Source: Clostridiales bacterium (GTDB lineage Bacteria; Bacillota; Clostridia; Oscillospirales; CAG-272). Taken from it: a stretch of DNA of 49,684 nt. Below are positions 3,917-7,170 of the stretch, in pieces (the first letter of the stretch is position 1; every line of letters starts with the position of its first letter). The notes under the pieces are model-generated. The model did no database searches. It saw only the letters and a program-made list of their open reading frames with translations, and was not told the DNA's origin. The translations under genes were made by a program, and so were the position numbers. The stretch covers positions 1 to 49,684 of the forward strand of contig JAAYLD010000005.1 of assembly GCA_012522015.1 (NCBI GenBank). The letters run 5' to 3'.

Positions 3917-5185
3917 TCAGCTTTTAGGCGCAGCAGTGGCTTTTCCAGCCGCTCTTCCGGTAGAAAATGCTATCTGCAGATTATAACCGCCTGTATAGGC
4001 ATCGACATCTATAACTTCACCGCAGAAATACAGTCCCGACACAGTCTTTGCTTCCATTGTACGTGGGTTAAGACACCTAACATCGACGCCACCTGATGTG
4101 ATAACGGCTTCCTCAATCGGTCTTTTGCGTAAAATAGGTATTTTAAAACCTTTTAACGTCATAATAAGCGCGCGCCGCTCTTCTTTTGTAACTATATTGC
4201 ACTTTTTACGTTCGTCAATGCCCGCTCTCTTAAGCACAACGGGCACAAGAGCCGAAGGAAGCAAATCGGAGCATGCGTTAATCAAATCACGGTTTATATA
4301 TTTAGCAAAATCTGACAGTATTCGTTTATCAAGCTGCGCTTCATTAAGCCCGGGCTTTAAATCTATCGACGCTGTGTATTTCCCGGGTAAAAGATCACCC
4401 ATACGCGCGGATGCCGACAGCACAAGCGGCCCGCTTATGCCGAAATGAGTGAAAAGCATCTCACCAATTTCAGAAAAAATAGCACATGAGCTTTTCTCTG
4501 TTTCAAACATAGTCAGCCTGACATTCTTAAGCGTAAGCCCGGCAAGTGTTTTACATGGCTCGCCTGCCTCAAGCGGTACGAGCGACGGCGATGTGTCGGT
4601 CACTACAAGCCCAGCTTCACGTGCGAAGCGGTATCCGTCACCATCAGAGCCTGTCGCAGGATATGAAAGCCCGCCGCATGCAACGATAACACAGTCGTAC
4701 GGAATAAACTTCCCGCACACTTCAATGCCTCGCACGGCGCCATCTTCTGTCACGACGCGAGTGACGCGCTCATTTATAATGCTTACGCCGTTTGTGCGGC
4801 AATATCGAATAAGAGCATCAGCAATGTCACGTGAGCGATCGGATACTGGGAAAACACGGCGTCCGTGTTCTGTCTTCAGCGGGACACCGAGCGATTCAAA
4901 AAAAGATATTGTGTCAGTTGGCGTAAAACTGGAAAGCGAAGCGTACAAAAACTTAGGATTTCGAGGCACATGAAGTAAAAATTCGCTGACATCACAGTTA
5001 TTTGTCACATTACAGCGACCCTTCCCTGTGATTGCCAGCTTTCGCCCGCATCGGTGGCCACGCTCATACAGCGTCACGCGCGCGCCCGCTGCTGCGGCCG
5101 TACCTGCCGCCATCATACCGGAAGCGCCTCCGCCTATGACGGCGACAGTGGGTCGTGTGGTGTGTGTACCGTCAGATTCAGTCAT
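3917..5185 (-). CDS. NAD(P)/FAD-dependent oxidoreductase, HI0933/BaiN-like flavoprotein
   Basis: VAVIGGGASGMMAAGTAAAAGARVTLYERG dinucleotide fold; GKGRCNVTN; GGYNLQIAFSTGRAAG. ORF track starts at 5233, but the ATG at 5185 (ATGACTGA overlap with the upstream stop) is more plausible. Confidence 0.9.
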   Translation of the reverse strand: MTESDGTHTTRPTVAVIGGGASGMMAAGTAAAAGARVTLYERGHRCGRKLAITGKGRCNVTNNCDVSEFLLHVPRNPKFLYASLSSFTPTDTISFFESLGVPLKTEHGRRVFPVSDRSRDIADALIRYCRTNGVSIINERVTRVVTEDGAVRGIEVCGKFIPYDCVIVACGGLSYPATGSDGDGYRFAREAGLVVTDTSPSLVPLEAGEPCKTLAGLTLKNVRLTMFETEKSSCAIFSEIGEMLFTHFGISGPLVLSASARMGDLLPGKYTASIDLKPGLNEAQLDKRILSDFAKYINRDLINACSDLLPSALVPVVLKRAGIDERKKCNIVTKEERRALIMTLKGFKIPILRKRPIEEAVITSGGVDVRCLNPRTMEAKTVSGLYFCGEVIDVDAYTGGYNLQIAFSTGRAAGKATAAPKS

Positions 5186-6047
5186 TATCGGTATCCTTTT
5201 CGTAAAGGTGGTATTCGTCCCAAATTCGCTCAAGTTTTAATAATGTATCAGAAAGCTCGTCCTGCTTTTTGCGCCCAATCGCAACAATAATTGCGTTTAT
5301 CAGCGAGAGCGGTGCGACAAGTGAGTCCATATATGACGCCATATCGCTCTTTGCAAAAAGGAGCCTGTCCGACCGAGAAGCGATGGGCGAAGATACACCG
5401 TCTGTTACGCCGATGACTTTTGCCCCCTGCGCTGATGCGAATGATACAGCTTTTATAATGCGGCGGGAATATCGCGGAAACGTTATCGCAATTAAAATAT
5501 CGCCTTCCCCGATACGCAGCATCTGCTCGTAAATGCTGTCCTCACTCTCGGTATTTACACATTTTACATTATCAAAAACAAGGCTTAGATTATACGCAAG
5601 CATTTGTGCTATAAATGATGACAGCCGTACACCTGCAATATATATGTTTTTCGCCTCTATTATTTCATCAATGGCGGCTGCAAAATCATCAGGATTATTT
5701 TCTTCTATTGTCGCGCGAATATTCGCTATATCTGATAGCAATGTTTTTTCCAAGGGGCTTGAATCTCCAAGACGTTCGTTTGTCACTTCAATGCGCTGAA
5801 CTGATGTCAGCTTTGAGCGCACAGTATCCTTAACAGCCCTCATAAGCTCAGGATAGCCATCAAAACCAAGCTCAATGGCAAAGCGCACCACGGTAGATTC
5901 GGAAACTCCAGCCTGACGTCCAAGCTTTGCTGCGGTCATAAAAGCAGCCCTATCATAATGGTTTAAAATATACTCGGCTATCCGGCGCTGTCCTTTTGAC
6001 ATCTCCGGCATCCGAGACTTTATTTCGTTTAAAATATTCGTATTCAT
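5178..6047 (-). CDS. MurR/RpiR-family transcriptional regulator (HTH + SIS domain)
   Basis: MSKGQRRIAEYILNHYDRAAFMTAAKLGRQAGVSESTVVRFAIELGFDGYPELMRAVK plus C-terminal SIS-type domain. Confidence 0.92.
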   Translation of the reverse strand: MNTNILNEIKSRMPEMSKGQRRIAEYILNHYDRAAFMTAAKLGRQAGVSESTVVRFAIELGFDGYPELMRAVKDTVRSKLTSVQRIEVTNERLGDSSPLEKTLLSDIANIRATIEENNPDDFAAAIDEIIEAKNIYIAGVRLSSFIAQMLAYNLSLVFDNVKCVNTESEDSIYEQMLRIGEGDILIAITFPRYSRRIIKAVSFASAQGAKVIGVTDGVSSPIASRSDRLLFAKSDMASYMDSLVAPLSLINAIIVAIGRKKQDELSDTLLKLERIWDEYHLYEKDTDND

Positions 6048-6109: not shown

Positions 6110-6138
6110 ATTATATTTTAATAATTAATGTGTGTCAA
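6110..6138 (-). promoter_or_regulatory. Sigma-A promoter for the rpiR-like operon
   Basis: Minus strand TTGACA (6138..6133), 17-nt spacer, TATAAT (6115..6110). Confidence 0.8.
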
Positions 6139-6187: not shown

Positions 6188-6215
6188 AATCCCGCCCGAA
6201 AAAACGGGCGGGATT
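6188..6215 (-). terminator. Rho-independent terminator of the 6242..7075 gene
   Basis: AATCCCGCCCG-AAAAAA-CGGGCGGGATT; minus strand followed by TTTTTT. Confidence 0.88.
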
Positions 6216-6241: not shown

Positions 6242-7075
6242 TCAGCAATGGCGGCAGCCGGAGCCGTCTCCATCCCCTTGCGGTAAAAATGATGGCGGGT
6301 AAAATTCGTTTACTGGGAAAGCCATGCTGCGGAAAAGCTTGCAAGGATCGTCGTCAGAGGGACTGACGCATTCCTTATCAGGAACGGTATATTCCGTTGC
6401 GGTGATTAGATACTGTGCCGGGCGCTCAATGCGGACGACTGAGAAGAAACCAAGTGATACTACAAGGAATCTGTCTTCGTCACCGCCGATAAGGCTTCCG
6501 CTTACCGATTTTGTAACCGATTCAGGTATCTCGTCAACGGAGCAGCAGCAACAGCAGCAAGTGTGCGGCTCAACGATTTTAGCGTTCAGAATAATCGGGT
6601 CGACCGTTTCCAATACGGCTACCGGCATATTTGTGCTAACGCGGTTTCCGGAAAGGTTCGGGCGGCGGCACGGATTATCCTCAAACGGATCGCTGCGGAA
6701 TATGCTTACATTGCCCTCAGACGCAAAAAGGATAACGCGTTTTTCTACAACAGCGATACCTTCAAGCTCGTGCGGAACACCGTTGCAGCAAACTTCGCAG
6801 AAAACTTTTACGTAAATACGTATTGTAATTTGATAAAATCCGCGGTTAAATGGGACATTGTCCACATCAAGTGTCGCCCATACAATATGAGCGTGCTTTG
6901 TGCGAACTGACTGTGTACGCTCGATAAGCTCCTGTCCAAATGGAGTAAGATAAACTCTTACATCTTCAAAGCAATCTTTGTCGCGGCAGGAATCGAGCAC
7001 TCTGTATGTGTCAATGCAGACTGTTTCGCGCTGTGAGCATGAACCAGCTGCGCCAAATGTTTTCTTTTCAGGCAT
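6242..7075 (-). CDS. Conserved clostridial hypothetical protein, Cys-rich (contains CCCCCC), possibly sporulation/coat related
   Basis: 277 aa starting MPEKKTFGAAGSCSQRETVCIDTYRVLDSCRDKDCFEDVRVYL; contains HTCCCCCCSVDEIP and ends GSGCRHC; AGGAGG upstream; own terminator. Confidence 0.8.
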   Translation of the reverse strand: MPEKKTFGAAGSCSQRETVCIDTYRVLDSCRDKDCFEDVRVYLTPFGQELIERTQSVRTKHAHIVWATLDVDNVPFNRGFYQITIRIYVKVFCEVCCNGVPHELEGIAVVEKRVILFASEGNVSIFRSDPFEDNPCRRPNLSGNRVSTNMPVAVLETVDPIILNAKIVEPHTCCCCCCSVDEIPESVTKSVSGSLIGGDEDRFLVVSLGFFSVVRIERPAQYLITATEYTVPDKECVSPSDDDPCKLFRSMAFPVNEFYPPSFLPQGDGDGSGCRHC

Positions 7076-7141
7076 AGATTGAGTTTGCCTCCTGTGATAA
7101 TTGGGGACTCGCGTTGTTTTTACATACGCGTCCTACAATCA

Positions 7142-7170
7142 TAGAATATGCCGAACACAAGTTATTTGTC
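7142..7170 (-). promoter_or_regulatory. Candidate sigma-K-type promoter
   Basis: Minus strand gACa (7170..7167), 16 nt, CATATTCTA (7150..7142), matching mACm-N16-CATANNNTA except the first base. Confidence 0.4.

Follow-up and report, generated by a model that had tools for sequence, protein, structure and literature searches.

A cysteine-rich candidate spore-surface protein family of Clostridia, with relatives split by recombinase-bearing elements

A cysteine-rich protein of 277 residues, encoded in the window (the whole 49,684-nucleotide stretch of DNA analysed here), most probably builds part of the spore surface, in either coat or exosporium, as a structural protein that only the mother cell produces, late in sporulation. 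Co-occurrence with SpoIVA, a family-wide sigma-K-like promoter and relatives at csxA-type loci all support the proposal of the earlier note that this is a candidate spore coat protein; coat and exosporium are indistinguishable by sequence. Many Clostridia of the gut presumably spread in the form of spores, and their spore-surface proteins are almost unknown. The result gives these bacteria a candidate shell protein that had no name and is widely conserved, a profile with which to find its family and a link from that family to CsxA, the sole well-studied clostridial exosporium lattice protein. The most unusual part of the finding is the interrupted copies: in several relatives the gene lies in two pieces on the same strand.

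Results

An apparent single-gene unit and its neighbours

The window copy of the gene is intact and uninterrupted, lies on the minus strand (left unstated by the earlier note; Table 1) and is single copy in its host assembly (1.82 Mb, 110 contigs, 94% completeness). The run of six consecutive cysteines (Cys173–178) is present as first described, and so is the strong terminator ascribed to the gene, a G+C-rich hairpin with a T run (6191–6208, minus strand) that falls 3′ of the stop codon, just beyond the reported interval 6242–7170. The transcript ended by this hairpin appears to hold one gene. Around the gene lie a phosphoglucose-isomerase-like gene and those of a small P-loop protein and an RpiR-type regulator; they are kept in related genomes, yet have the look of housekeeping genes with no functional link to it, and an operon reading was rejected. 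The P-loop-like protein stays near the gene in 14 related loci, and a perfect TTGACA-N17-TATAAT promoter-like site (6110–6138, minus strand) precedes the RpiR-type regulator gene. Elsewhere in the family, some lineages (L230–L233) have the gene 3–5 kb from spoIVA; in L232 it is also near SpoIVFA/B-like and SPOCS-type ORFs, judged from sequence starts only.

Table 1. Features of the gene and its surroundings in the window, and sites at which the gene is interrupted in relatives
Feature	Position	Strand	Details
CDS, Cys-rich protein of 277 aa (P0001)	6242..7075	minus	ATG start, 277 codons, 18 Cys
Run of six Cys codons, residues 173–178	6542..6559	minus	TGC TGC TGT TGC TGC TGC
Ribosome-binding site AGGAGG	7088..7093	minus	precedes start codon
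-10 element CATATTCTA	7142..7150	minus	sigma-K type CATAnnnTA
-35 element GACA	7167..7170	minus	N16 spacing to -10
Intrinsic terminator hairpin with T run	6188..6215	minus	G+C-rich; palindrome 6188–6215
Small P-loop-like protein, 134 aa	7276–7680	minus	adjoins gene; no confident family
RpiR-type regulator gene	5178–6047	minus	
Interruption site A (relatives)	~ residue 30		between DSCR and DKDC
Interruption site B (relatives)	~ residue 69		
Interruption site C (relatives)	~ residue 156		between AVxE and xVDPI

A family-wide sigma-K-like promoter

The B. subtilis sigma-K consensus reads mACm...CATAnnnTA, and the window promoter, GACA-N16-CATATTCTA, departs from it solely in the G at the first -35 base, in agreement with the one-base mismatch originally claimed. 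Scoring C[AC]-N14..16-CATAnnnT[AG] within 180 bases upstream, we found the pattern before 67 of 75 non-redundant members. Dinucleotide shuffles gave an expectation of 1.7 ± 1.5 matches, and only 6 of 182 neighbouring genes of the same loci carried the pattern, which is therefore more than chance. An AC-type -35 and a CATAnnnTA -10, the sequence mark of the sigma-K regulon, are conserved in orthologues, and the pattern also stands upstream of all 11 distant relatives checked. A sigma-K-like promoter characterises the family as a whole, and points to control of the gene by sigma-K. The CATA core of the -10 is common to sigma-E and sigma-K, and spoIVA is nearby in some lineages, both of which would suit an earlier coat protein expressed in the mother cell from sigma-E; many members have an AC(A/C)-type -35 and a -10 ending in nnnT[AG], however, and we regard sigma-E expression as rather unlikely.

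Conserved residues and predicted fold

Searched with the window protein, Pfam and NCBIfam gave no match, and neither holds a model of the family; Pfam searched with all 49 aligned members returned nothing consistent, only scattered single weak matches. Searches of the PDB by sequence and by fold yielded no credible match to the protein or its model. In the databases searched, this is a new family. Scanning GTDB genomes, we recovered 80 loci, almost all of them in metagenome assemblies of uncultured Clostridia, and an order-level draw (completeness ≥ 90%) contained the family in 180 of 217 genomes. In the alignment of 49 members from which we built profile A1, the conserved core spans residues ~17 to 260; D28, C30, D32, D34, C35, F76, G79 and C236, among others, are invariant, and C96, C136 and C245 are near-invariant cysteines. 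The AlphaFold2 model of the window protein is β-rich and in two parts with a Cys-rich loop between them (mean pLDDT 79.6, pTM 0.67).

The hexa-cysteine run, by which the earlier note named the protein, is not a conserved feature of its family: the longest run among homologues varies from 1 to 8 cysteines, and some members lack the run. The run is a variable loop, and the conserved cysteines lie elsewhere; a CGC-like tail is found in most homologues. Such a Cys-dense loop, together with the CGC tail, might be read as a sign of metal or redox activity during sporulation, the run being the metal site. We disfavour a metal site because the run is so variable, being absent from some members, and some csxA-locus relatives have only 6 cysteines, which makes a metal or redox protein improbable.

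Distant relatives at csxA-type loci

CsxA (UniProt G9F2G0) is the exosporium basal-layer protein of C. sporogenes and C. botulinum group I (PMC4942563, PMC7333573), with 25 cysteines in 299 residues (PMC4942563); it self-assembles and is seen only in sporulating cells (PMC4942563, PMC7333573, PMC13293322). Its gene is reported to have zapA on one side and a U32 peptidase gene on the other, to diverge from a conserved ORF and to have glycosyltransferase and collagen-like genes nearby, a context that its authors note need not be common to more distant homologues (PMC7333573). Profile A1 detects distant relatives elsewhere in Clostridia, and in one genus of family f56 these sit near zapA, in loci that also contain pheS/pheT-like ORFs, glycosyltransferases and a 565-aa ORF of divergent orientation, plus a collagen-like repeat protein in one genome. 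No U32 peptidase gene was seen in the stretch examined around the zapA cluster. In gene content this locus fits the published csxA cluster.

The zapA-linked ORFs of Clostridium (profile A4) have 283–310 codons and 6–22 cysteines. Comparison of A1 with A4 in hhalign gave E 5e-22 and a probability of 99.4 over nearly the full length, at 20% identity, and HMMER matches to csxA-locus proteins ranged from 1e-11 to 1e-16; reversed and shuffled controls of the A1/A4 profile comparison gave no matches. A predicted model of a zapA-linked protein has a similar order of main strands at lower confidence (pLDDT 64). By profile comparison, the window family is thus homologous at the superfamily level to the csxA-type locus proteins, which share with it this strand order and the sigma-K-like promoter. 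The zapA-linked proteins may themselves be CsxA, an assignment drawn from locus, length and Cys content and not from direct alignment with G9F2G0; the plasmid collection searched held no csxA-like record. Both CsxA and the window protein are Cys-rich and ~280–300 residues long. Unlike CsxA, the window protein has a Cys-rich loop between its halves and a Cys-containing tail, comes from an uncultured Clostridia lineage, and is encoded away from the zapA locus, not between zapA and a U32 peptidase gene.

In the mechanism that we favour, sigma-K RNA polymerase would transcribe the single-gene unit, and the protein, two β-rich halves joined by the Cys-rich loop, would be made in the mother-cell cytoplasm. 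It would then, like CsxA, form a packed layer surrounding the forespore, held locked by disulfides that would join conserved cysteines to those of the Cys-rich loop and the tail. We infer localisation, lattice formation and disulfide locking alike; formation of a CsxA-like lattice by the window family is plausible. Alternatively, a mother-cell protein of the spore surface could, without forming a lattice itself, connect or crosslink layers as an adaptor or help to anchor polysaccharide or appendages. Its one copy per genome and its variable Cys-rich loop and tail would suit such a role, as would the CsxA-like domains within appendage anchor proteins described in a preprint (PMC11952670), but a main subunit is what one would expect from its size and from homology to csxA-locus proteins over nearly the whole length, and we rank the adaptor role second, as possible but less likely. 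Against a structural spore-surface protein we count the imperfect -35 in the window, the share of SpoIVA-positive Clostridia that lack the family (below), the want of a resembling solved structure and, for the tie to CsxA, the indirect link to G9F2G0 and the U32 peptidase gene not seen beside zapA.

Two other groups of spore proteins were compared. The BMQ_0737 family morphogenetic spore coat protein of Bacillus megaterium (NCBIfam NF052457) belongs to the outermost spore layer. An intermediate clade, A2 (L155/L172 type), matches the window family and, weakly, NF052457, its best members scoring 19.7–25.5 bits (E 8e-4 to 1e-5) against a curated cut-off of 71 bits. The window protein itself gave no match to NF052457, and profile comparison to the sole true member of the BMQ_0737 family was weak and does not establish homology. 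ExsY and CotY of the B. cereus group, which are Cys-rich, self-assembling exosporium proteins, are possible functional analogues; the window protein has no Pfam or NCBIfam match to them, and the CsxA authors consider them analogous, not homologous, to CsxA (PMC7333573).

Co-occurrence with sporulation genes

The genome that carries the window gene encodes Spo0A, SpoIVA and two sigE/K-class sigma matches. A class-wide draw of 293 Clostridia genomes (completeness ≥ 95%) contained the family in 130 genomes and SpoIVA in 215. Presence in many non-sporulating lineages, which the earlier note had named as refuting its proposal, was not seen: 128 of the 130 carriers have SpoIVA, and only 2 of 78 SpoIVA-negative genomes have the family (Fisher value 1.8e-21, descriptive only because the genomes compared are not phylogenetically independent). 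Strong sigE/sigK-class matches are kept in all ten family-positive, SpoIVA-negative genomes tested, so their missing SpoIVA is likely an assembly gap. A detectable family member is absent from 87 of the 215 SpoIVA-positive Clostridia (~40%), and the family is therefore not universal to sporulation.

Within genus g58, four members (G079, G091, G103 and G126) lack SpoIVA, sigE/K-class matches and the family altogether, and their sister G065 keeps all three; the clade of four seems to have lost sporulation. This parallel loss bears on whether the gene encodes a vegetative Cys-rich protein that is unrelated to sporulation and merely tracks phylogeny. The housekeeping-like neighbours in the window and the phylogenetic dependence of the genomes compared would allow for that, but the loss in step with SpoIVA and sigE/K in one genus, the promoter and the homology to csxA-locus proteins leave a vegetative role very hard to credit.

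Relatives interrupted by recombinase-bearing elements

The split gene is listed in 19 genomes from 10 families of Clostridia, 13 of them with both exons on one contig (split or interrupted loci L160, L161, L162, L166, L235–L238, L243, L245–L259 and L266–L275), and the interruptions fall at three sites (Table 1). The interrupting elements measure 1.4 to 41 kb, and the largest bear phage-like genes; some of the elements are prophages. In nearly all split loci a large serine recombinase (Pfam Resolvase + Recombinase) directly adjoins an exon. These recombinases cluster by site, with 37–68% identity within A, 44–69% within C and ~25% between. Virtual excision at a short shared core yields an uninterrupted ORF of 280–300 codons in 12 loci, so that the split relatives combine in-frame restoration of the ORF with a recombinase borne on the element, as intervening elements do. 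A sigma-K-like -10 stands before most N-terminal exons.

We rejected misassembly as an explanation of the split genes: these sites turn up again in many genomes, and viral contigs show them too, together with the recombinase clade that matches. Comparison of split-gene species gives a dN/dS of ~0.05 for the N-terminal part and ~0.09 for the C-terminal part, figures that are rough because dS is high. Both halves are under purifying selection, and gene decay is at these values an unlikely cause of the split; conceivably, the two halves work separately as independent polypeptides.

Known targets of intervening elements are sigK, spsM, spoVFB, gerE and yabG (2023 paper, PMC10747680). In skin/sigK, SPbeta/spsM, vfbin/spoVFB, gin/gerE and yin/yabG a recombinase element likewise splits a sporulation gene in frame, and in arrangement the split relatives show the sigK–skin and spsM–SPbeta pattern, from which we infer that their elements would be excised during sporulation. 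What sets them apart from the known cases is the host gene, a putative structural gene of the spore surface, and its interruption at three separate sites, each by its own recombinase subfamily, across ten Clostridia families. Our literature search found no paper joining csxA with intervening elements, nor this gene listed as a target. With this recurrence, the family is probably a repeated target of developmentally excised DNA, its protein being made in such relatives only after excision in the mother cell. Recurrent interruption of this kind is consistent with a gene that only a terminal cell requires, and we count it in favour of a spore-surface protein. If phages and small elements do integrate again and again into a spore-surface gene in Clostridia, as the interrupted copies suggest, their excision would be tied to sporulation in many lineages.

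The pairing of site and recombinase is repeated in three viral contigs. IMG/VR contigs L278, L279 and L280 (the last being the terminal part of a viral contig of 109 kb) hold exon fragments of the gene beside the matching recombinase. Integrases of named phage records are only moderately similar, at up to 43% identity. In one genome (G035; L258, L259 and L273) the gene is apparently in three pieces, of which the middle one lies on the other strand; two recombinases of site-A type accompany them, and the arrangement may represent a double insertion with inversion.
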